DNA from: a virus
Virus record (IMG/VR): IMGVR_UViG_3300048835_000988
Coordinates: 1 to 32,686 of that record
Reading direction: 5' to 3' (one strand)
Length of the DNA stretch: 32,686 nt
In this document: positions 1,795 to 31,890 of the stretch, in pieces
How the letters are laid out: each line of letters begins with the position of its first letter
How positions within the stretch are numbered: position 1 is the first letter of the stretch
Program-made: the position numbers and the translations under genes
The notes under the pieces: generated by a model
Told to the model about the DNA's origin: nothing
Database searches by the model: none
The model's input: only the letters and a program-made list of their open reading frames with translations

Positions 1795-2436
1795 TTAATG
1801 TACTATAAATCCGCATTTTTTCTTTATATCTAAAATATCAATTAAATCATCTATCTCAATTTTGCTATGTAAGCCTAATTTATATGTGCAATTTGATGAA
1901 TAATTCACGTCTAAATGATTAAGAGGATGTAACTCTCCATTTTCATGTTCCTCATCCATATCGTATCTAATGTATCCTAATTCCATAGCTAACATTCTTG
2001 TCATAACTTTCCATGCACTTTCGATAATAGAATATTCATATTCTTCACAAATATCTCTACAGAAGTCATCATAAATTTTTTCTACTGAAACTTCATCAAA
2101 ATCAAAGTTATGTATAATTCTAGTAATAATCGAAAGCATTTTATTGTCAATTTCGACATCAGAGTTATTATCATATATTCGATATTCTTGTTCAATTTGT
2201 TCAAGATAAAATGGAAAGGCAATTGAAAAATATTTATTCTCTATCCTATAAAACACTCTACTCATTTTATCAATAGCGATAACTACACTCCCTTTGTTTT
2301 CATGAATATGGTCGTCAACAAAAAATAATTTTACAGTGTCTAATAATAAAACCAAAAAATCTTTTTTTGTTCTTAATGGTCTTGCTATTTTTTTATAAAA
2401 ATAGTTATTTATTGGGAACTCAAGTCTTTTTGCCAT
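1795..2436 (-). CDS. DUF2290-like protein, partner of the helicase
   Basis: This is a 213-residue protein of unknown function. It has no signal peptide or membrane segment and is acidic in its middle part. Near residues 157-190 it reads IRYDMDEEH, then HPLNHLDV, then YKLGL. That spacing of R-x-D, HPxxH and a basic-hydrophobic strand is how I remember the C-terminal signature of DUF2290, whose members are also about 200-230 residues; I could not align it. The gene starts 10 bases after the helicase stop codon, and its ribosome site GAGGG overlaps the helicase end, so the two are co-transcribed and probably act together. Codons are very AT-rich, unlike the structural genes, which suggests separate acquisition. 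The position between lysin and attachment site is the usual place for lysogenic-conversion genes. Function as a defence component is inference. Confidence 0.7.
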   Translation of the reverse strand: MAKRLEFPINNYFYKKIARPLRTKKDFLVLLLDTVKLFFVDDHIHENKGSVVIAIDKMSRVFYRIENKYFSIAFPFYLEQIEQEYRIYDNNSDVEIDNKMLSIITRIIHNFDFDEVSVEKIYDDFCRDICEEYEYSIIESAWKVMTRMLAMELGYIRYDMDEEHENGELHPLNHLDVNYSSNCTYKLGLHSKIEIDDLIDILDIKKKCGFIVH

Positions 2437-2446
2437 ACCAAATCCC

Positions 2447-4465
2447 TCAATTCATCAAACTATAATTCATTCTTATTATTTCATATAATTTATCTTTATC
2501 TAATTCTTCTTTGTGGAGTATACTAATCATTTTATGCAATTTCTCTCTATCTTTTTTATTTACATTAATTTGATCCATAATTTCTTCCACTATATCGCGC
2601 TGTGACTTGTAGATATTCCCCCTATTGATAATAGCATTGTTCAACCTTCTTTTCTCAGCTTTATCGGGTTCAATAAGATGTAAATATCCCTTCTCATTAA
2701 CATCATTTATTCCCTTTGATATTTGTTCAACAGTTTTCATATCAATATCTGGAATTATAAAATATGATGTTATAAAAGATCGTGTCAACATCATGTATAC
2801 CGAATTTCTTGTTTGTAAATCTGTATTTAAATTCCCTTGCATTAAACAAATGACAAATGGAAACTCCAATCCTTTTACATTATTTCTATTACTGATAAAC
2901 AAAGATCCCTTTTTCTTTTCTTTTGTCTCATAACCAATATTAACATCCCAATTAAACATCTCACTTATTTCTACCTCTAATTGGTTCGCCAAAAAATAAT
3001 TAGCATTTGTATTTTCCAAAAACATAATTCCTATATCATCTGGCTCTATACTTGGATTCTCAATCTTTAGATCCTTGATTATTGTTAATATCTTATCAAG
3101 ATATTTCTCCTTTTTTTCTGGTATTATCTCAATACTTTTAATGTTAGCATTAGTTATGTCCTCAAATCGCCTTAATGGTTTTCTAGATAAATCACAAAAC
3201 CCATCAGGAGTCCTATTGATCTCATATCCACAATCCTCCCATGCTCTGTCTTCTAGCCATCTTAAACGATTTCCGACTTCGAAAAGCCCCATTCCAATAG
3301 CATGTGCACACATTAACGTCCTAGGGTCAGTTCTATAACACTTATTCAATAAAAAATCTGGATTTACTTCGCTAATAATTTCACTTTCAAAAACATTTTG
3401 AAAGATATCTCCAGCTACATACAAACAATTTTTTGTCACTTTCGCACATAACGAAAAAAAGTTCTCAGTAAAATCTTGGCTCTCATCAATCAATATATAA
3501 TCAAAGCATGGTTCGAAATTTGATATACTTTGTAAATACCCCAAAGCTCGTTTACAGATACTATCAAATGTTGTATGATAAGAAAATCTTTCAAAAGGAA
3601 GATTATAATAATCGCAAATATAACTGTAAACTCCTGAATCAGGAGCACCTTTTGACCCCCAGCCACTCATTACCCATAATTTTTCCTTCCATTTTATTTG
3701 TTCATCTACTTTCATGAAATCGAAAAACTCCGGTATTCTTTCTCTAAGATTCTCAGCAAGAATTTTATTATGACAGGTAAAAGCTATTCTCACATCCTCA
3801 CTTTTAACGTATAATTCTTTAACTTTATGAAGTAATAATTCCGTTTTCCCCGTTCCAGCTAGACCCTGTATAGTTATTCGATTTTTAGTAGGCTCATCAT
3901 AAATAAAACGTGTTTGATCTCCATCAAATAGAATTATCTTTCTTTTTATTTTTTCCAAAATTGTTTCTGGATACTCCACACCAGTTTTTTTAATATCGTT
4001 TATACTCCCAGTAAGTAACGATATTAAAAACTCACCTTTTCTTTCATTTTCCTTGGTTCCTAATTTATATCTTTTAAGCAGCTCTGATATTTCTTCATTT
4101 TTTATATCATTATATTCTACCACTTCGATAAATTCTTTTCGCCAATTCCTTGCTCTTCCCAAAACTTTCGTATAATTATATTTATCCGAGATGTGTCCTA
4201 AATCATCTAAAAAATCTTCTACATAGTTAGTAAAAGCGTCAGCATTATTTCCGTAATTCAAAAACAATACTTTGTGTTTTGGGATAAGTATTACGAAGAC
4301 TTTTTCATAACTATACTCATATTTTTTTTCACCCAATGGTTTGTTGATAACATAAACCGAATTGCCATTTGTAAAACTTATTGCATATTCTCTCAATTTA
4401 TCCAAAAAACTATCAATTTCAGTATTCGTATCAAAACTTTTGTAAAACAGACTTTTATCTTTCAT
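2447..4465 (-). CDS. UvrD-like superfamily 1 helicase with unknown N-terminal domain
   Basis: Full SF1A helicase core, counted from the longer start at 4483: Q-motif glutamine near 190, Walker A GLAGTGKT 207-214, Walker B LIDESQD 331-337, motif III GDIFQ 358-362, motif IV region NKCYRTD 380-386, motif V VKGLEF 536-541, and motif VI MMLTRS 564-569. Residues 1-180 are a separate domain that I do not recognise. The tail after 600 is charged and probably helical. The protein should unwind or translocate on DNA or RNA using ATP. I chose the ATG at 4465 because GAGGG lies 4 bases before it; the ATG at 4483, six codons earlier, has no clear ribosome site. It is the first gene of a two-gene operon with the DUF2290-like gene. 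It resembles neither a phage replicative helicase nor an AddA/PcrA housekeeping enzyme in length, and its location suggests a defence role (inference). Confidence 0.85.
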   Translation of the reverse strand: MKDKSLFYKSFDTNTEIDSFLDKLREYAISFTNGNSVYVINKPLGEKKYEYSYEKVFVILIPKHKVLFLNYGNNADAFTNYVEDFLDDLGHISDKYNYTKVLGRARNWRKEFIEVVEYNDIKNEEISELLKRYKLGTKENERKGEFLISLLTGSINDIKKTGVEYPETILEKIKRKIILFDGDQTRFIYDEPTKNRITIQGLAGTGKTELLLHKVKELYVKSEDVRIAFTCHNKILAENLRERIPEFFDFMKVDEQIKWKEKLWVMSGWGSKGAPDSGVYSYICDYYNLPFERFSYHTTFDSICKRALGYLQSISNFEPCFDYILIDESQDFTENFFSLCAKVTKNCLYVAGDIFQNVFESEIISEVNPDFLLNKCYRTDPRTLMCAHAIGMGLFEVGNRLRWLEDRAWEDCGYEINRTPDGFCDLSRKPLRRFEDITNANIKSIEIIPEKKEKYLDKILTIIKDLKIENPSIEPDDIGIMFLENTNANYFLANQLEVEISEMFNWDVNIGYETKEKKKGSLFISNRNNVKGLEFPFVICLMQGNLNTDLQTRNSVYMMLTRSFITSYFIIPDIDMKTVEQISKGINDVNEKGYLHLIEPDKAEKRRLNNAIINRGNIYKSQRDIVEEIMDQINVNKKDREKLHKMISILHKEELDKDKLYEIIRMNYSLMN

Positions 4466-4538
4466 TGATCCCTCTATTTTCATTTTTCTTTTTTTCTACC
4501 TAACTGTTATTTTATCAATTATATTCAAATATAACAAG

Positions 4539-4571
4539 ATTATACCTTGGCATACTTTTATTATATTTCAA
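4539..4571 (-). promoter_or_regulatory. Possible promoter of the helicase cassette
   Basis: On the minus strand TATAAT (4539-4544) lies about 75 bases before the helicase start, with TTGAAA (4566-4571) upstream. The 21-base spacer is longer than the preferred 17, so only the -10 box is convincing. The whole 4484-4686 gap is AT-rich and holds no gene that I can support. Confidence 0.3.
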
Positions 4572-4686
4572 TTACAAAACACTTCATACTTAAATATAAG
4601 CTTCTTTAATAGATCCAATTGAATTAATTCACTTCATATCAAAAAAACATCACACCTATGATTCTTTAATAAAAAGTGATATAGAT

Positions 4687-5442
4687 TTAATAATTTTTAA
4701 TAATCAATTCTTTATATTCTTTATCTTTCCCATCGTACCGTTCAAGTAGCGAATTTCTCCGGCAAACTTCTATCAGGTTAAAGCCCTGATATAATTTCTG
4801 GACAAAATCATCATTGTTATAACTCAGTATAAACTTTCCTTTGATTTCTTTCAAGCAGTCTCTCAATCTTTCATGATCTACATCACAAAATCCGGTCTGA
4901 TAATATTTTTCTGTCCCATGATATGGTGGATCAAGATAGAAAAGCGCCCCGGGTCGATCATGAACCTTGATGATCCGTTCAAAATCTTTGTTTTCAATCA
5001 CCACACCGTTTAATCGGTCACTGATCTCACTCAAGTAGTCGGAGCTTTTAATCAGGTTTTTCTTAGTCCCGCCAAATGACTTTCTGTCAGCACCGTATGA
5101 AGTCTTGATAATCATAAAATACCGCCCAGCCCGTTGGATGTCGGTTAATCCTCGCATATCAAGCTGTGATTTGAAATCGTCAAAGAACTCCCGGGAATTC
5201 AAAACACAGGATATTTCCTTTTTCACCTCATCCGGATGATACTTCACGCACCGGAACAAATTGGTCAGCTGACCATTAAAATCGTTATAAATCTCCAGAT
5301 CGGCATGCTTATCTTTTGCAAAGAGCACCCATCCGGCCCCACCAAAGACTTCAATGTATCGATCAAAGTCCTTTGGAAACATATCAATTATTGTTTTTCT
5401 TAACAGGCGTTTCCCGCCAATCCATGGTATAAAACTATTCAT
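4687..5442 (-). CDS. DNA adenine methylase (Dam / D12 class)
   Basis: S-adenosylmethionine-dependent N6-adenine methyltransferase of the MethyltransfD12 family. Visible motifs are FIPWIGGKRLL at residues 4-14 (AdoMet/target region), EVFGGAG at 31-37 (motif I), YNDFN at 52-56, and the catalytic DPPY at 171-174. The length of 251 aa is near that of Dam enzymes. The start has a perfect AGGAGG ribosome site. No restriction nuclease gene is next to it, so it is an orphan. In phages such enzymes usually modify phage DNA to escape host restriction or alter gene expression. The target cannot be read from the sequence; GATC is common for the family but not certain. It lies just after the lysin in transcription order, in the accessory zone. 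Confidence 0.9.
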   Translation of the reverse strand: MNSFIPWIGGKRLLRKTIIDMFPKDFDRYIEVFGGAGWVLFAKDKHADLEIYNDFNGQLTNLFRCVKYHPDEVKKEISCVLNSREFFDDFKSQLDMRGLTDIQRAGRYFMIIKTSYGADRKSFGGTKKNLIKSSDYLSEISDRLNGVVIENKDFERIIKVHDRPGALFYLDPPYHGTEKYYQTGFCDVDHERLRDCLKEIKGKFILSYNNDDFVQKLYQGFNLIEVCRRNSLLERYDGKDKEYKELIIKNY

Positions 5443-5465
5443 TTTTCCTCCTAAATATTAAATAG

Positions 5466-5483
5466 GGCCACCCGAAGGTGGCC
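5466..5483 (-). terminator. Hairpin terminator after the endolysin gene
   Basis: GGCCACC (5466-5472) and GGTGGCC (5477-5483) form a perfect 7-bp stem with a 4-base loop. On the minus strand it is followed by CTATTTAATATTTA, a T-rich but broken tail. It lies about 75 bases after the endolysin stop and before the methylase start, and probably ends the late transcript. Confidence 0.55.
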
Positions 5484-5558
5484 GTGAAACTTGCTTGACA
5501 AATTTTGGGTCAAGATCATTGTATTTTCAATATCAAAACGTCAAAACCTACATATATC

Positions 5559-6551
5559 TTAAAACCAATCGTAAATGCCTTGAGTAACGACCTCACCAAA
5601 TGCTGAAGCGTTGGTCAATACTCCGATATCCGGACGAATGCCGCCAGTTTCAAAAATGCAGGCAGTCATGCCTGTATCAGCAACCTCCCAATCGTCTCGC
5701 TGGATCACGCCCCGGGTACCAAGTCCCAGGCGAACCTGAGCTGAACCAATCAGGCAGTTTGCAATCCGGATGCCGTCGCCACTTCCTGGGTAGACAATTG
5801 GCAGTGTTCCAGACGGAGCCTGATTATAATCACAATGCAGCGATACGTAAAGATCGGCTCCCCACGAATTCGCTTCGTTGACGCAGACGGCAATGTTTTT
5901 ATCATTATTAGTATCAGCATCCGTCAGGACCGTAAAACCGAGATCACGTAATCTTGCTGCCGCCACCTTCCCGATGGCCAGCATTAAATCGGCTTCGGTA
6001 TACTGGCCATCTACACACCCACAGTCCCACGATCCGTCACTTGAAACGCCATGCCCAACCGCCAGATAAATCTTTCCAGACTTCTTACCCTGTACAGATG
6101 CCACCGGCGTTGAAGCCGGTACCGGAACAGGCGCAGGTGCTATTACAAATGTAGAACGGTGATCATCAACGCTAATCGGTTCATCACTTTTTAATAACCG
6201 GATCGCTTCTATTCTCAGACCCCCACCAGTCGTTCCGGCCATTTCTCCATTTCTGGCAAAATCCAACCATCCGACATTCTGTACATGAACCTGATAATTC
6301 AGATTTTCGCATTCAATCTCAATTGCTTCGATTCTCAGGCCTTGGCCAACGGTACCGGCAATCTCATCTTCCTGAACCCAATCCATCCAGCCGATGTTCT
6401 CGACATGGACGCGATAACGCTTAACGCCCTGGATTCGAATCGCTTCTATCCGTAGTCCCTGACCGACTGTCCCGGCCAAGCGCCCTTCCTGGACCCAAGC
6501 GCCCCAACCTTTGTTTTCGACATGAACTTTATACAGTAACGTATTTGCCAT
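5559..6551 (-). CDS. Endolysin: N-acetylmuramoyl-L-alanine amidase with three ChW repeats
   Basis: Cell-wall hydrolase that frees the phage at lysis by cutting between muramic acid and L-alanine. Counted from the in-frame ATG at 6557, three about 40-residue ChW repeats (clostridial hydrophobic repeat with conserved GW) cover residues 7-43, 47-83 and 87-123 and should bind the host surface. A Pro/Ala linker (about 140-155) leads to an Amidase_3 domain with zinc ligands H169, E188 and H241 and catalytic E303 (FETGG). The usual order in phage lysins is catalytic domain first; here the binding repeats come first. I chose the ATG at 6551 because AAGGTG lies 7 bases before it; the one at 6557 is too close to that site. 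It follows the holin directly. Confidence 0.93.
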   Translation of the reverse strand: MANTLLYKVHVENKGWGAWVQEGRLAGTVGQGLRIEAIRIQGVKRYRVHVENIGWMDWVQEDEIAGTVGQGLRIEAIEIECENLNYQVHVQNVGWLDFARNGEMAGTTGGGLRIEAIRLLKSDEPISVDDHRSTFVIAPAPVPVPASTPVASVQGKKSGKIYLAVGHGVSSDGSWDCGCVDGQYTEADLMLAIGKVAAARLRDLGFTVLTDADTNNDKNIAVCVNEANSWGADLYVSLHCDYNQAPSGTLPIVYPGSGDGIRIANCLIGSAQVRLGLGTRGVIQRDDWEVADTGMTACIFETGGIRPDIGVLTNASAFGEVVTQGIYDWF

Positions 6552-6553
6552 TT

Positions 6554-6985
6554 TCATTCACCTTCACTTTCTTTTTCTGTTTCTGCTTTGTTTCCAATCT
6601 GTTTTAATGCCTTGGTAAGAGCTTCCGGGAGGGGAACGCCTAAATTTCCGGTATTCTCCAAGATGCTCAGCCCTTCATTGGCAATGAACATCAGGCAGAC
6701 GATGTTTTTAAAATATGATCCGCCCTGGTTGGTGGCAATATCAATCTGAACGGCCACCATGACCACGACCAACTCAGCCACCTTTTTAAACAGTCCTTTT
6801 AACCCAATGGATGAGGACAGTTCTTTGTTCTGGAACGCCACCATTAACCCGGTGATATAATCTAAAGCCATCAGCGCTACCAAAACACACATCAACGTAT
6901 CCCACCCTCCAAATAACCATGTCACAAATCCTACTACTGCCGTAAAAATGCTTGAAACTAAGGGGTTGTCTGTAAAATATCTCAT
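6554..6985 (-). CDS. Holin, phage_holin_4 / TcdE-like family
   Basis: Small inner-membrane protein (143 aa) that opens the membrane to time lysis and lets the amidase reach the wall. Hydrophobic segments are seen at about residues 11-26, 30-52 and 70-85, with a weaker one near 92-108. The sequence DYITGLMVAFQNKELSSS is typical of phage_holin_4. The C-terminal 25 residues are charged and cytoplasmic-like. The ribosome site AAAGGATG precedes the ATG. It lies directly before the endolysin. Confidence 0.9.
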   Translation of the reverse strand: MRYFTDNPLVSSIFTAVVGFVTWLFGGWDTLMCVLVALMALDYITGLMVAFQNKELSSSIGLKGLFKKVAELVVVMVAVQIDIATNQGGSYFKNIVCLMFIANEGLSILENTGNLGVPLPEALTKALKQIGNKAETEKESEGE

Positions 6986-7010
6986 TTGATCATCCTTTCT
7001 TTTTGGAAAT

Positions 7011-7031
7011 AAAAAAACAGCCTAAGCTGTT
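7011..7031 (-). terminator. Rho-independent terminator between tail genes and lysis genes
   Basis: On the minus strand AACAGC (7026-7031), loop TTAG and GCTGTT (7016-7021) are followed by a run of seven T (7017-7011). It overlaps the stop codon of the small gene at 7022-7162. It would reduce read-through from tail genes into holin and endolysin unless late transcription is antiterminated. Confidence 0.65.
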
Positions 7032-11761: not shown

Positions 11762-14700
11762 CTAATTCTTCATCAATAATTCTTGTACTGACCGTTTGAA
11801 CAGCTTGGCACTTTTAGCAGGCGATAAAGCCGTTGGGCTATTAACGGTGATGTTCATGGTTACATTGCCGTTAGCAAGCAGCTCGCTTGTATCGGCATCA
11901 TAGACCCTTTCGCCACCTTTAAAATTAACCAGCTCTGGACCTTTTTCACCTACCCAATGTAAACCCGAAGTCGCATAGTCTGTTCCAGATGCATATCCAA
12001 AAATACTGGATGGATCAACCCACGCACCGTCTTCCATAACCCCAAAATGTAAATGGGGACCCGTTGAATTTCCTGTACTTCCCACCAAACCAATGGTCTG
12101 TAATTGGGTTACTAAATCGCCAACATTAACCAAGACTTGTGAAAGATGGCCGTATAAGGTCTCTAACCCGTTTCCATGGTCAATAATAACTGCATTTCCG
12201 TATCCACCGTACCAACCGGCCTGAGTAACTGTTCCTGCTCCAGCAGCTCCAACGGGAGTTCCCTCAGCAGCACCAATATCGATACCCATATGATCTGAAG
12301 AACCTACCCCAGCAACATCATCACGATACCCAAAGCCAGAAGTAATGTCACCGCCGACTGGAACCGTTAAGCTTCCAAAATCAGAACCGCCAATACCGAT
12401 GCTCTTGAAGAATTCTGCAGCACCGCTTCCGATGAAATCAATGGCAGCTTTTAGATTGAAATTTCCGTTGGTAAAGGCAGATTTAATGTCTTCGACCATG
12501 CTGTTGACAAATGCCATGAGGTTGTCACCATTCAGGCCATTAATTAGACCTTGGACGATATACTTCCCAATTTCAAGCATAACTCTGGCTGGTGAGTGTA
12601 TCCCGAAGCCTTCTTTAAACTTTGTGATAACATCGTTGACAAGACTGGTTACCGCTCCATAGACATTTCCAGCTGTTTCCTGAATTCCTGCAACCATTTG
12701 ATTTATCATGTCACTTGCAATGTTTTTCAGGTCGGTCGGTAAATTTTGAATTTTTGAGATAATATTGTCTTTGACTTCCTGCCATTTAGTCCCGGCAGTC
12801 TCTTTTATTTCCTGCCATTTACCGGGCAAGTCTTCAACAATTTCTCTTACTTTATCAGTAACATTCAGGAAAATTTCACCAGCCTTTTGAGCCAGATCAT
12901 CCCTGATCGCTGCCCATTTTGCTTGAGAATCATCTTTACTGGCTTGCCATTTGGCTGCCACATCATCAGCGGTTTCTTTTATTTTACTGGTCACATTTGA
13001 ATAAATCTCACCAACCTTATTGGCCAGATCGTCACGAATATTTGCCCACTTTGTTTGGGTATCACTTTTTGTTTCTTCCCATTTAGCAGCAACGCCCTTT
13101 GCCAGTTCCGTAATTTTCCCAATCGTGTTGTCATAAATCAACTGCCATGCTGTCTGTAGAAAGGTTACAATTCCATTCCAGGTTTCAGTTGTTCGTGTAA
13201 CAAGTCCAGTCCAGATGCCAACTATAAAATCAAGAATGCTCTGGAAAATGAGCGCTACCCAGTTATAAAGCCCCTGAAATACGTTAACCAAAAAATCAAC
13301 TGCATTCTGACCCATTGCCTGGGCAAACTGCCAAGCTGCAGCCCAATCACCATTTAATAAAGCGACAACTAAGCCGACAAAATTTCCGATAAAACTGAGC
13401 AAGTTCCCGATAGCTGCGATAAACGGCGCAATGGCCACAATGATATTGGCAAAGCCATTGATAAATGATCCAATGAACTGCTCCACCACCGGCACGATAT
13501 AGGTTCCGATAAAGTCTCCAATCTGCTGCAGCACCGGGGTTAATCCGGTTGCAAATCCCTGGAAGGACTCCATCGCTGGGCCTAATGCCTCGCTGATCCT
13601 CCCAAAGGCATCTTGCGCTGTATTTTTGATGGACTCAAACGCCCCGGAAACTGAATTTCTGAACGTCTCCGAACTTTGATAAGCGCCAACAAGTATCGCC
13701 ACTAACCCGGCAATAACCGCAACCACAATGGCCACCGGCCCCGTTAACGCCGCCAGGGAAGAACCCATTCCCACAGCTCCCTCGGCACCAATGCCAAAGG
13801 CTGCCGATGCTGATCCAAGCGCCCCGTTTAATAGGCCCCCGGTTGCGAATAATCCGGCAACATTGGAAACCGCTCCAGCGAGGCCTCCTAAAATCAGCAA
13901 AAGCGGCCCAATTGCCGCTGCCACCATCCCTATTTTTACAATAAACTCCTGTTGTCCCTGATCCAGATTACTGAACCATTCACCCAGATCGCTGACCTTT
14001 TGCGCTGCTGTTTCCAGCATTGGTGCTAATACATTTAAGATCGTTTCGCCAAGATCAGCCCCGGCCTGCTGCATTTTCTGAAATGATAACTGAAACTTAT
14101 CCCCGGCATCCAAAATGGAATTAAAGGTATTGTCCAGCGTCCCATCAGAGCCTTCAATGACAGCCAGAAATTCTTCATATGAAAAACGTCCACCTTTAAT
14201 AGCATCCGCTAAATCTGGCCCCGCCTTTTGGCCAAAGACTTCAATGGCCATAGATGTTGCTGTTGCAATATCCGGAGTCTCACCGATGGCCTGCAAGGTC
14301 TTTTTAAATTCTTCCCTGGCATCTTTACCATCGGCTGACCAATTTGAGATTGCTTTTTTCATCCCGGAAAAAGCAATTTCAGTATTGACACCCGCCTTTT
14401 CCCACCCGGCAAAGATGGCAATGGATTCCTGGGTATCAAACCCCAGTGCTCGCATTGGTGCCCCATACTTAGTCAGGTTTTCGGTCAGTGTTTCAATACT
14501 GATGCCCGAAGTTTGGCTTGCTTTGGTCAGCTGATCCAATACGCTTTTGTACTGCTCTGCCGGGATACCGGCATCACCCATGGCTCTAGAAACAAGCTGT
14601 ACCGATGTCGCCACGTCTGTTCCGGTCACCCGTGAAAACTTAAGAAAATCCTCACTCATGGATTGCAGCTGATCCCCGGTTACATCAAACCGGGCGCTGA

Positions 14701-15076
14701 CATCTCCGACCGCTGAAGAAATGTTGTCAAAGGTATCCGGAATGGTCTTACCGACATTTTTATAGACATTCTCAAGGTCTTCAGCCTTGGCGCCCATAGC
14801 CCCGGTGGTCGTGATGATTTTATCCATCCCGTCATCCACCACATTAAAAGCCAAAACGCTGGCTGTTCCCAGGGCGGTTAACGGTGCCGTTACATAGGTT
14901 GTAAAACCTTTTCCAACGCTACTTAAGCCATTGCTGATATCATCGGCTTTCTTGGCTACATCGCCAAACTTTTTCCCCAGGATCTCGGCATTGTTTCCAG
15001 CCCGATCCATCTCATTATTGGCTTCACTGGTATCAACGAAAATCGAACCAAACAGTTTAAAGATCTCAAACGCCAT
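11762..15076 (-). CDS. Tape measure protein with C-terminal M23 peptidase domain
   Basis: Long helical protein (about 1104 aa) that sets tail length and passes through the wall and membrane at DNA injection. The N-terminal third (residues about 40-330) is the phage tape measure core (TTTGAMGA, KFSRVTGTD, AMGDAGIPAEQ). A hydrophobic middle with several membrane-like stretches follows (about 380-640). Then come tandem 45-residue repeats with KW motifs (about 665-775). Near residues 915-1030 lies an M23 metallopeptidase with DHMGIDIG and GPHLHFG, carrying the zinc-binding His/Asp and HxH residues. The peptidase should cut peptidoglycan cross-links during entry. GTG at 15085 is possible, but GGGGGTG fits the ATG at 15076 better. 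The start overlaps the end of the tail chaperone gene. Confidence 0.93.
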   Translation of the reverse strand: MAFEIFKLFGSIFVDTSEANNEMDRAGNNAEILGKKFGDVAKKADDISNGLSSVGKGFTTYVTAPLTALGTASVLAFNVVDDGMDKIITTTGAMGAKAEDLENVYKNVGKTIPDTFDNISSAVGDVSARFDVTGDQLQSMSEDFLKFSRVTGTDVATSVQLVSRAMGDAGIPAEQYKSVLDQLTKASQTSGISIETLTENLTKYGAPMRALGFDTQESIAIFAGWEKAGVNTEIAFSGMKKAISNWSADGKDAREEFKKTLQAIGETPDIATATSMAIEVFGQKAGPDLADAIKGGRFSYEEFLAVIEGSDGTLDNTFNSILDAGDKFQLSFQKMQQAGADLGETILNVLAPMLETAAQKVSDLGEWFSNLDQGQQEFIVKIGMVAAAIGPLLLILGGLAGAVSNVAGLFATGGLLNGALGSASAAFGIGAEGAVGMGSSLAALTGPVAIVVAVIAGLVAILVGAYQSSETFRNSVSGAFESIKNTAQDAFGRISEALGPAMESFQGFATGLTPVLQQIGDFIGTYIVPVVEQFIGSFINGFANIIVAIAPFIAAIGNLLSFIGNFVGLVVALLNGDWAAAWQFAQAMGQNAVDFLVNVFQGLYNWVALIFQSILDFIVGIWTGLVTRTTETWNGIVTFLQTAWQLIYDNTIGKITELAKGVAAKWEETKSDTQTKWANIRDDLANKVGEIYSNVTSKIKETADDVAAKWQASKDDSQAKWAAIRDDLAQKAGEIFLNVTDKVREIVEDLPGKWQEIKETAGTKWQEVKDNIISKIQNLPTDLKNIASDMINQMVAGIQETAGNVYGAVTSLVNDVITKFKEGFGIHSPARVMLEIGKYIVQGLINGLNGDNLMAFVNSMVEDIKSAFTNGNFNLKAAIDFIGSGAAEFFKSIGIGGSDFGSLTVPVGGDITSGFGYRDDVAGVGSSDHMGIDIGAAEGTPVGAAGAGTVTQAGWYGGYGNAVIIDHGNGLETLYGHLSQVLVNVGDLVTQLQTIGLVGSTGNSTGPHLHFGVMEDGAWVDPSSIFGYASGTDYATSGLHWVGEKGPELVNFKGGERVYDADTSELLANGNVTMNITVNSPTALSPAKSAKLFKRSVQELLMKN

Positions 15077-15431
15077 TAGCTTCACCCCCTTTCAGGGTTA
15101 GATTGATGATCTTTTCAACCTTCTCATTGATTTCGTTAATGGTCTCCTGTTTGGTTTTCGGGGCGGCCCTTGATTGGATACTTTCGCTTTGAGCCAGCTT
15201 CTTGTAATCATCAAAAGTGATAAAGTTCTCAGGCCCCATATGCCGGTAATCAACTAAATAGCGATCCCACAATTTCGCATCCTCTTCTTTTTCAAAGGCT
15301 TTGCGAATAAATGCAAGACCGCTATCAATATCTATGTTTAAAATATAGTCGATGTTGTTATATCGTCTTAGGAGCAACTCCTCGATTTCAGTAACATCTA
15401 CTGAGTTGCTGACTTGAAAAAAGACGCCCAC
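15066..15431 (-). CDS. Tail assembly chaperone, downstream (gpT-like) frame, expressed by -1 frameshift
   Basis: This open frame lies between the first chaperone gene and the tape measure gene, as T does in lambda. It has no own start signal: its first codon in the open frame is a GTG inside the upstream gene with no ribosome site. Ribosomes that slip back one base at 15416-15422 would continue from ASF into FQVSNSVDVTEIEELLLRR and end at 15066. This gives a fusion of about 250 residues from the start at 15805. The frame encodes a charged helical protein with IEELLLRRYNNIDYI and a C-terminal helix. It should chaperone the tape measure during tail assembly and not stay in the virion. Confidence 0.82.
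   Translation of the reverse strand: MGVFFQVSNSVDVTEIEELLLRRYNNIDYILNIDIDSGLAFIRKAFEKEEDAKLWDRYLVDYRHMGPENFITFDDYKKLAQSESIQSRAAPKTKQETINEINEKVEKIINLTLKGGEANGV
15373..15422 (-). promoter_or_regulatory. Programmed -1 ribosomal frameshift signal (slippery site plus stem)
   Basis: On the minus strand the heptamer T TTT TTC (15422-15416) is in the zero frame of the upstream chaperone (codons TTT TTC). Five bases later AGCAACTC (15410-15403) pairs perfectly with GAGTTGCT (15380-15373), and a small inner hairpin CAGTA/TACTG fits in the loop. A -1 slip joins exactly to the frame ending at 15066. All parts of a standard -1 frameshift element are present. Confidence 0.85.
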
Positions 15432-24367: not shown

Positions 24368-24982
24368 TCACCGTACAAAGTCAGCTAACGCCTTTGTGTA
24401 CTCGTGATACTTCTCTTGATCCAGTCCTAAATATAGTTTTGTCTCTTCGATGGAGGAATGCCCCAGCAGTTCTTTTACTGCCACAACATCCTTTCCGCTG
24501 TCCATGTAAATCTTATAAGCATAGGTTTTACGCATACTGTGTGCCGTGATCCCTTTGATCCCAAAGTAAGCAGCAGCGTCTTTCAAGATATTGCTTATTG
24601 CCTGAACGCCAATGGCTCCACCCTTACGGGATGGAAACAGCCACTCGTAATCCCGCTTATCTTTGATGTATAATTTCAACTCCCTGGCTACCTTGGGAAT
24701 AATCTCAGCCTGCCGGGGTTTCCGGTTCTTCTGCCGGATGTTCTTAGAATTGTATTTCTTCCCTTCCTGAATCAGGAAGTACCCATGCCGGATCGCTTCT
24801 CTGGCATCCCTAACTTTTAGGCCAACCAGATCCCCGGCCCGGTAGCCGGTTGTGATGCCGATTAAAAATAAAATGTAATTACGTCTGCCCTCAACCGTTC
24901 TGTTGGCTGCTGCTTTCAAATAGTCTTGTATATCCAAAACGTCGCGGGTTCGCTTGATCGGCTTTGATGGTTGTTTTCTCAA
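24368..24982 (-). CDS. Stand-alone tyrosine recombinase (catalytic domain only, FimB/Xer-like size)
   Basis: This 204-residue recombinase has the full active site: Arg48 (TGYRAGD), Lys in the beta-hairpin near 78-90, His148 and Arg151 (HSMRK), His175 (LGHSS) and nucleophile Tyr184 (KLYLGL). It lacks the N-terminal arm-binding and core-binding domains of phage integrases, which are usually 350-400 aa. It is close in length to the FimB/FimE inversion enzymes. It is therefore unlikely to be the enzyme that integrates the prophage, as it is also far from the att site. The start is TTG, with AAGGAGG about 12 bases upstream. It lies between the late regulator and the packaging genes and ends at a strong terminator. 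It may act in inversion, dimer resolution or genome-end processing. Confidence 0.88.
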   Translation of the reverse strand: MRKQPSKPIKRTRDVLDIQDYLKAAANRTVEGRRNYILFLIGITTGYRAGDLVGLKVRDAREAIRHGYFLIQEGKKYNSKNIRQKNRKPRQAEIIPKVARELKLYIKDKRDYEWLFPSRKGGAIGVQAISNILKDAAAYFGIKGITAHSMRKTYAYKIYMDSGKDVVAVKELLGHSSIEETKLYLGLDQEKYHEYTKALADFVR

Positions 24983-25040
24983 TTCATATCATCTCCTCCT
25001 TAAAAATTAAAGAAAAATAAACTTATTTTAAAATTTCAAT

Positions 25041-25625
25041 TTAGAACAAATCATCATACATCTGTACCTTTTTAACAATGATTGATTTGTACAATTTTTT
25101 AACTTTATCCTCAGAATGAATAAAAAATCCATATAGATCTGTGAAAATTACACACACAAAAAAAACAATGCTTGCAAATAAAAGTTTTAGATTCATTTCT
25201 TCATCCATTGCGTTCTTAAACGAATACCAAAATGCCATGAGTGAAATAATAATTAATGCGTAATTATAAAATGCTTTCTGTATCTTAAAAACAATTTTAT
25301 AAGAATCTCCAGAACTAAATAAATAGTATCCTAGTTCAATGGCTGCATTTACAATCAAAACAAAACAGAATATTAAAAAAATATAAAATACAATCTGCAA
25401 CCAACTATCATCGCTCATATAATTATCAAATATAAATTCAATTTGTTCGGCAAATAGTACATAAGTTAAGCAAAAAATAACTGGCTGATAAATAACTCCT
25501 ATAATAAAATTTAATAAAACATCCTTTACAATAAAAATTGTAAAGAAAATCATTTTTGCAAACTCCCACACCCCAAATGCTATAAGTCGAATGAATATAA
25601 TCAATCTTAAAAATACTAATTTCAT
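25041..25625 (-). CDS. AT-rich multi-pass membrane protein of unknown function
   Basis: This 194-residue protein has about four to six hydrophobic segments (about residues 5-40, 45-60, 78-100, 124-142 and 150-170 of the mature frame) and a positively charged C-terminal tail (KVKKLYKSIIVKK). It is very rich in Phe, Ile and Tyr, and the gene is far more AT-rich than the packaging genes. I recognise no family. I chose the ATG at 25625 because TAGGAG precedes it; the open frame begins 12 codons earlier with no ribosome site. It has its own sigma70-like promoter and is insulated by a terminator upstream, so it can be expressed in the lysogen. A moron acting at the membrane, for example in superinfection exclusion, is possible but unproven. 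Confidence 0.7.
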   Translation of the reverse strand: MKLVFLRLIIFIRLIAFGVWEFAKMIFFTIFIVKDVLLNFIIGVIYQPVIFCLTYVLFAEQIEFIFDNYMSDDSWLQIVFYIFLIFCFVLIVNAAIELGYYLFSSGDSYKIVFKIQKAFYNYALIIISLMAFWYSFKNAMDEEMNLKLLFASIVFFVCVIFTDLYGFFIHSEDKVKKLYKSIIVKKVQMYDDLF

Positions 25626-25666
25626 ATATACTCCTATATTATAAATTTTTAAACTAATCAATATTT

Positions 25667-25695
25667 ATTATATAGGAATCACTGTTTATGGGCAA
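25667..25695 (-). promoter_or_regulatory. Sigma70-type promoter of the membrane protein gene
   Basis: On the minus strand TTGCCC (25690-25695), a 17-base spacer and TATAAT (25667-25672) lie about 42 bases before the ATG at 25625. The spacing is ideal and the -10 box is perfect. Confidence 0.65.
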
Positions 25696-25730
25696 TTATA
25701 AAATTCATTCAACTTTTATGCTCAACAAAT

Positions 25731-25756
25731 AAAAAAAGCAACCACCTTCGGCTGCT
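25731..25756 (-). terminator. Rho-independent terminator after the late regulator gene
   Basis: On the minus strand AGCAGCC (25756-25750) pairs with GGTTGCT (25743-25737) with one G-T pair and a 6-base loop. Seven T follow (25737-25731). It ends the early operon after the regulator at 25840-26277 and precedes the promoter of the membrane protein gene. Confidence 0.8.
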
Positions 25757-25839
25757 CTTAATTCTTTACCTTCTTTTTCACTTTAGATACTATCATGGTT
25801 TTAAAAAAATTGCTGTACCCTATTTTGTTCACTATTCGC

Positions 25840-26277
25840 CTATTTTTTGTTATTTTTTTCTTCCTGATCCAATTTTGACGATATTTTTCTAATATACCCA
25901 TATCCATAACCCAGCACCAGCGCAATCTCCTGCAAGCTGTAACCAACCTGATCCCTCAGATATTTGACCTTTGTATTCACATTATCAATACTACTTATCT
26001 GCTCAAGAATCTGGTTTTTCAAATTACCGAGAACATCAATCTCCCGGTTGTGTTCATTAATTTGTTGCTGCAACTCCATGACCTCCGGAAGAATGTCTTC
26101 AAATGCTTTTGATCGGCTGCCATGAATACATGAAGCATCCAGATCATCCCCTAATTTACTTGTTTTAATACCATCTGGAGCAAGCTGGCTCATTAATCTC
26201 CCTTTTCTCCGAATCAGATTATCCCTACACGTCGTCTCTATATTGATCATTGCCGTTATACTCTTAACCTTTGACAT
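25840..26277 (-). CDS. Late transcription regulator, sigma-70 region-4-like (DUF1492/RinA/ArpU type)
   Basis: This is a 145-residue protein with an N-terminal coiled-coil-like region (FEDILPEVMELQQQINEHNREIDVL) and a C-terminal helix-turn-helix (TKVKYLRDQVGYSLQEIALVLGYGYGYIRKIS). This is the layout of the small sigma-like activators that end the early operon of Gram-positive siphophages and switch on packaging and structural genes. It is the last gene before a strong terminator. It would be expected to act on the promoter region at 24230-24367. Start ATG is preceded by GGGGGGAAG. The family choice is by architecture. Confidence 0.72.
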   Translation of the reverse strand: MSKVKSITAMINIETTCRDNLIRRKGRLMSQLAPDGIKTSKLGDDLDASCIHGSRSKAFEDILPEVMELQQQINEHNREIDVLGNLKNQILEQISSIDNVNTKVKYLRDQVGYSLQEIALVLGYGYGYIRKISSKLDQEEKNNKK

Positions 26278-31203: not shown

Positions 31204-31890
31204 ATGGAGTTTGAAATAACCTCTCAAAATATTGATTACATAGCACCTGATGGATCTTTTGAACTTTGCGACGATCAGTATGATATAAATTTTGATACAT
31301 TATGCCCTCACTGCAAAACTACTTTTAAGCCAATTGCATTGAATGCTTATCATTCTGAAGACTTGATTTACGTAACTTTTCTATGTCCACATTGCAAGCA
31401 AATTTATTTTGCAATATTCTTTGAGTCAATCAGAAATGAAGTCACACTTGAAAAAATATTCCCAAATAATCACAGATCTTCTATCCTTCCAAAAGAAATT
31501 GAAGCTATATCACCTGGTTTTATTAAAATTTATGATCAAGCTTCAATTGCTGAAGAACAACAACTTGATGAAATATCAGGCATGGGTTACCGAAAGGCAC
31601 TTGAATTTCTAATTCGAGATTATGCTATTTCTAAACAACCTGACAAAAAACCTGAAATACTTAGCTCACCTTTGGTACAATGTATAAAAAGCTATATTGA
31701 TAATGACTCTATCAAAACCCTCGCAACAGTATCTGCATGGATCGGAAATGATGAAACTCATTATTTACGGCATCATGAAGATCGCAATATTAACGACTTA
31801 AAAAAATTCATTGATACAATTGTCAGTTTTTTTATGTTTGAAATTACATTAAAGGATGCTCAGAGCATTACTCACAAAAATAAGAAATGA
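31204..31890 (+). CDS. DUF4145 protein with double CPHC zinc ribbon (moron)
   Basis: This 228-residue protein is the only phage-region gene on the plus strand. It has CPHC at residues 34-37 and again at 61-64, a two-knuckle zinc ribbon, then GYRKALEFLIRDY at 128-140 and WIGNDETHYLRHHEDRN at 179-195. The GxRxALE...GNxxxH pattern is DUF4145, a helical domain found in restriction systems and stand-alone proteins; I recall it being linked to the HEPN superfamily, and no canonical RxxxxH nuclease motif is clear here. It has its own promoter and an AT-rich base composition. This fits a gene expressed in the lysogen. A role in immunity against other phages is inference. Confidence 0.82.
   Translation: MEFEITSQNIDYIAPDGSFELCDDQYDINFDTLCPHCKTTFKPIALNAYHSEDLIYVTFLCPHCKQIYFAIFFESIRNEVTLEKIFPNNHRSSILPKEIEAISPGFIKIYDQASIAEEQQLDEISGMGYRKALEFLIRDYAISKQPDKKPEILSSPLVQCIKSYIDNDSIKTLATVSAWIGNDETHYLRHHEDRNINDLKKFIDTIVSFFMFEITLKDAQSITHKNKK

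Follow-up and report, generated by a model that had tools for sequence, protein, structure and literature searches.

The stretch of DNA analysed in this study (32,686 nucleotides, referred to as the window) is an incomplete IMG/VR provirus record that carries two adjacent genes on its minus strand. The upstream gene (2447–4483) encodes a 678-aa SF1 (UvrD/PcrA-like) helicase of the STM2767 family (NF053713) with all helicase motifs intact, and the downstream gene (1795–2436) encodes a 213-aa protein of the STM2766 family (NF053714), a putative effector. A first-pass annotation had described a spacing of 10 bases between the two genes, a second gene of 213 residues and an R-x-D...HPxxH signature in its product, all of which were recovered exactly (YIRYDMD at residue 155 and HPLNHLD at residue 170). 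Its statement that both genes are strongly AT-rich was also confirmed: the GC content is 29.9% for the helicase gene and 26.3% for the small gene, compared with 38.8% for the neighbouring methylase gene, 50.1% for the amidase gene, and 40.1% for the window.

Genes encoding a D12 methyltransferase (4687–5442) and an amidase lysin with ChW repeats (5559–6557), both identified by Pfam, are located upstream of the pair. The AT-rich gap between methylase and helicase (4484–4686, minus strand) holds a promoter-like site with an extended −10 element (4537–4509, minus strand), identified by consensus matching; as a class, promoter-like sites show a modest excess in the window (31 versus a shuffled mean of 21.9, sd 4.5). 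Terminator-like hairpins, four of which were found against 1.5 expected, occur on the minus strand 3′ of the pair (1671–1686, by consensus matching) and after the lysin gene (5466–5483), where the hairpin parts the late genes from the segment containing the methylase and the pair. These consensus matches, which lie in AT-rich DNA, weakly suggest that the pair forms its own transcription unit. The D12 methylase was considered as a further member of the two-gene unit and rejected because the closest phage keeps the methylase without the pair.

A partial tRNA gene, comprising the T-arm and acceptor side of the 3′ half, was recognised by eye at about 1526–1562 on the minus strand and is presumed to be the attachment site; ARAGORN reported no whole tRNA and did not call this half. 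The earlier placement of the pair between the lysin/methylase genes and a tRNA attachment site therefore stands for the lysin and methylase, which do flank the pair, and only in part for the tRNA, of which the 3′ half alone was seen, with no second att copy within the window. A 204-aa tyrosine recombinase catalytic domain encoded upstream of the packaging genes (24368–24982, minus strand), far from the attachment site, is unlikely to be the integrase of this prophage, whose gene may be situated beyond the ends of the record. Next to it is a second very AT-rich island (about 25001–26000, 26% GC) with a gene for a 206-aa membrane-like protein (25041–25661, minus strand) that has no Pfam match and is possibly another cargo gene. 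Another possible cargo protein is encoded at 31204–31890 on the plus strand, opposite to most phage genes; this AT-rich gene specifies 228 aa with CxxC pairs and no Pfam match. The tape measure protein (11762–15085, minus strand) has a C-terminal M23 peptidase domain.

The helicase matches the NCBIfam equivalog model NF053713 with 883.2 bits (cut-off 550) over residues 10–675 and contains the Pfam domains AAA_19 and UvrD-helicase. Motifs I, II, IV-like, V, and VI are all intact (GLAGTGKTE at 207, DESQD at 333, YRTD at 383, NVKGLE at 535, and MLTRS at 565). A PDB sequence search returned matches to the PcrA core only, and no Pfam match was found for residues 1 to about 180, in agreement with the previous description of an intact SF1 helicase with an unmatched N-terminal region. 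AlphaFold2 predicted an alpha/beta fold for this N-terminal domain (residues 1–182; 3938–4483, minus strand) with a pLDDT of 86 and a pTM of 0.80. The first ten Foldseek matches of the predicted domain were all human Schlafens, at weak scores (E 0.025–0.31, TMq 0.30–0.34), and we treat this resemblance of a modelled structure as a lead only. In the helicase tree, which covers seven phyla, the nearest relative of the window protein is a Lachnospiraceae protein (73% identity); identity to the enterobacterial members is about 40%.

The small protein matches the equivalog model NF053714, named as a helicase-associated protein, with 182.5 bits (cut-off 70) and has neither a Pfam nor a PADLOC match; the 2023 PADLOC library contains no model for it. 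PDB sequence searches with its family gave zero matches. The predicted structure (pLDDT 93, pTM 0.89) consists of a five-strand run, three helices, and then three strands that would bear R157, D161, H170, H174, D176, and K186, and searches of the fold against PDB and BFVD returned no match below E 0.1. In an alignment of 82 sequences, Y155, R157, D161, H170, P171, H174, D176, K186, and G188 (1870–1974, minus strand) are invariant and D159 is nearly so. This cluster is a candidate active site, part of which appears to be common to DUF2290: R157, D159, H170, P171, and H174 are kept in both the STM2766 and DUF2290 branches. An enzymatic role for the small protein is a guess from this conservation.

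The first-pass annotation had regarded the pair as a module of a type that could not be matched to a named system. This did not hold, since NCBIfam contains curated models of both families and Helicase+DUF2290 is identifiable as their closest relative with a name. Comparison of the STM2767 and Helicase+DUF2290 helicase profiles with hhalign gave E 4.3e-47 over 564 columns, and in the tree a branch with a support of 100 sets the STM2767 helicases apart. The PADLOC model PDLC03002, shown by bona fide pairs to be the helicase model of Helicase+DUF2290, matched the window helicase only partially (E 2.8e-32, best stretch residues 169–368 only), whereas three bona fide pairs matched it over nearly the full length (1.7e-111 to 2.5e-127). 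All five lower-identity plasmid relatives with a complete helicase that were opened, and the viral loci L099, L100, L102, and L105, are helicase + DUF2290 pairs.

For the small proteins, the STM2766 and DUF2290 profiles matched at E 4.1e-5, and at E 2.2e-5 when more sequences were included (score 42.2 versus a maximum of 22.7 in 100 column shuffles); the motif region alone gave E 7.8e-9 (score 36.3 versus a shuffled maximum of 17.2). The window protein has no match at the DUF2290 cut-off (PF10053, 25 bits), and the best family member tested, from Prevotellaceae (L086), scored 20.6 bits (E 3.3e-4), below the cut-off. The earlier label "DUF2290-like" thus survives as a remote relationship seen with profiles and falls below the Pfam threshold. 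Because the DUF2290 cut-off is not reached, we place the pair, on profile and tree evidence, as a divergent sister branch of Helicase+DUF2290 and not as a member of it.

A profile scan recovered 80 bacterial and 19 viral loci. In every bacterial locus with a continuing contig (77 loci from seven phyla), the small gene is located directly 3′ of the helicase gene on the same strand; this count includes shortened or split copies (L017 and L049) and one locus with a 231-base gap (L080), and it leaves out three contigs that break off within the helicase or shortly after it. The spacing between the two genes is mostly −14 to +16 bases. The same arrangement is present in 11 of 11 full-family viral (prophage) loci, and the genes are paired on all six plasmids (Acinetobacter, Lactobacillales, Salmonella, and Pantoea), one of which carries a pair broken by IS256. 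Among sampled genomes, both families occur in exactly the same genomes of Clostridia (2/245), Bacteroidia (2/247), and Gammaproteobacteria (1/229), where each count includes the centre genome already known to be positive. The pair was identified in 37 of 5426 E. coli genomes and was chromosomal every time. A single-sequence viral scan and a tblastn search of GenBank phages found no relative, whereas a query built from an alignment did. Being rare, mobile, and never separated, the two genes follow the pattern of an accessory system.

Several copies are damaged: IS256 is inserted in the small gene of L002, the small gene of L116 is frameshifted, IS1 lies between both genes of L120, whose helicase is slightly shorter, and the small gene is split in L049 and L092. 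These damaged or interrupted copies suggest recurrent loss. The Salmonella IncHI2A plasmid L004 (NZ_CP110658.1) carries hin, fljB, and fljA in addition to the STM2767/STM2766 pair, and represents a chromosomal flagellin segment that moved to a plasmid along with the pair.

In the four P2-like E. coli prophages that were opened (L115, L121, L156, and L157), the pair is located between the replication endonuclease gene gpA and the portal gene gpQ, and a DinI-like gene is also present on the gpA side of this site. In L115 it occupies 3093189–3095839 of NZ_CM165877.1. GPA and portal domains likewise flank the pair in the viral contigs L088 and L089 (Pfam, both flanks). The gpA–gpQ interval of P2, home of old and tin, is a defence hotspot (Rousset et al., PMC9122126). 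The other type of E. coli site follows the tail fibre assembly gene of lambdoid prophages. A gene with an AbiTii domain adjoins the pair in two E. coli lambdoid prophages (L113:15074–15994 and L114:15075–15995) and possibly represents a second defence cargo at one site. More PADLOC models were matched among 141 adjacent genes than among 136 distant genes (157 versus 54), a modest enrichment that counts models rather than genes and includes redundant methylase models. Homologues are accordingly seen beside each other, at 77 of 77 loci, and beside defence genes such as those for AbiTii, and the helicase falls in the STM2767 family, sister to Helicase+DUF2290, rather than matching a housekeeping repair helicase.

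The closest phage relative (L151) shares 83% DNA identity with the window over about 4629–7029, and the similarity stops at about 4629, in the gap between methylase and helicase. This phage has the lysin and the methylase, lacks the pair, and carries other cargo at the corresponding site, which indicates that the pair is swappable cargo. The segment in the pair's place (L151:9900–16993) contains IS3-type transposase genes and a gene for a 240-aa protein of unknown kind.

Judged from homology and genomic context, the pair very probably protects the bacterium against other viruses or plasmids. A role in defence or MGE exclusion is highly probable, and a prophage-borne two-component defence system, with the helicase as sensor and the small protein as effector, is the probable form of it; the sensor–effector mechanism itself has about an even chance of being correct. 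In this mechanism, the SF1 helicase would detect the foreign or abnormal DNA of an invader, either a phage or a plasmid, by loading at its ends, gaps, or replication intermediates, and would hydrolyse ATP. The STM2766-family protein would be bound to the helicase and held inactive until the helicase engages, whereupon the helicase would license this enzyme-like partner in the fashion of HamAB or GajAB. The activity of the effector would probably reside in its invariant cluster (R/D/H/H/D/K), and cleavage or modification of nucleic acid or nucleotides is the most likely form of it. We infer the complex between the two proteins, its ligand or trigger, its chemistry, and the phage target. The defence module proposed in the first-pass annotation is thus retained on good but indirect grounds, namely the gene linkage, the prophage cargo and P2 hotspot sites, and the apparent sister relationship to a tested system, and loses only the notion that it has no named relative.

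The two proteins may instead serve to exclude plasmids or other MGE rather than phages, with the helicase disturbing replication of the incoming replicon and the small protein helping or restraining the helicase. This is possible, and we hold it tentatively. The Helicase+DUF2290 pair of PAO1 consists of PA1372 and PA1371 (PMC11637435), and once PA1372, the sister helicase, is lost, plasmid pNUK73 no longer imposes its fitness cost, to which SOS induction and stalled-replication genes belong (PMC4410645). The window's family is also plasmid-borne. Against exclusion as the sole function, Helicase+DUF2290 specifically inhibits phage T7 (PMC9122126), and the E. coli copies are found at phage cargo sites. 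Plasmid exclusion and anti-phage activity are compatible and not mutually exclusive.

We consider it unlikely that the pair is a toxin–antitoxin or addiction unit kept selfishly by the prophage, in which the small protein would be the toxin and the helicase its antidote. An ATPase of 660–690 aa makes an unlikely antidote, a resemblance of the small protein to the toxin TumE failed a profile test (see below), and the plasmid-free PAO1 mutant of the sister helicase is unchanged in fitness and has no differentially expressed genes (PMC4410645); these observations speak against such a unit even though the strict two-gene linkage, the mobility, the invariant polar cluster, and the existence of broken copies (L120, L116, L049, and L092) would fit it. 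An accessory for phage replication or repair, comprising a helicase and its loader and serving the prophage's own lytic cycle, is less likely still. The UvrD-like SF1 core and the presence on a phage would agree with that role, but the pair is located beyond the lysin and methylase genes, after a terminator-like hairpin and adjoining the attachment site, the nearest phage relative does without it, and it is also found on plasmids and in the chromosomes of bacteria from seven phyla. In addition, the P2 gpA–gpQ slot holds variable accessory cargo (PMC9122126).

Both window proteins are clear members of NF053713 and NF053714, families that are curated by name only, with no function stated, and their gene order is that of the Salmonella plasmid L004 and of E. 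coli L113 and L115. Literature searches by locus tag and protein accession returned only typing papers that name STM2767, and found no phage-challenge data or function. As a model of how a defence pair may work, a helicase sensor with a separate effector, the pair resembles Hachiman (HamAB) and Gabija (GajAB) (PMC12278908, PMC10952713). Unlike Gabija, the pair lacks a GajA OLD/TOPRIM nuclease partner, as neither Pfam nor PADLOC recognises the small protein, and the likeness of the helicase to GajB is limited to the core motifs (E 2e-5, PADLOC). Unlike Hachiman, it has no match to HamA, and its helicase is SF1/UvrD-like whereas HamB is SF2. The small-protein motif also resembles by eye the R-Y-D...H-x-H style motif of TumE (DUF6516), a translation-targeting toxin. 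This kinship was rejected: the motif region scored 11.2 against PF20126, a value that 16 of 100 shuffles equalled or exceeded, and the full-length score of 25.9 (null maximum 24.2) came from an alignment of the wrong segment.

Helicase+DUF2290 (the Rst system of Rousset et al., 2022) is the anti-phage system to which the pair is homologous. It differs in that the helicases are about 26–31% identical and that the window's small protein falls under the Pfam and PADLOC thresholds for DUF2290. We regard as rather unlikely the broader idea that STM2766 and DUF2290 together constitute a new class of immune effector enzymes, with a fold unmatched in the PDB and an R/D/HPxxH/K active site gated by a Schlafen-related SF1 helicase; if true, the Schlafen-related N-terminal domain would link bacterial prophage defence to vertebrate Schlafens. 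The two systems have in common two genes in identical order, an SF1 helicase (about 700 aa) that has an N-terminal region of its own, RxD...HPxxH in the small partner, and prophage and P2 cargo sites, and Helicase+DUF2290 pairs likewise occur on plasmids, in prophages, and, in L100, adjoining the P2 portal gene. STM2767/STM2766, always paired across seven phyla and located in recognised phage defence slots, broadens the sequence range of the Helicase+DUF2290 lineage, and the five residues common to both branches point to a candidate functional site of the small protein.
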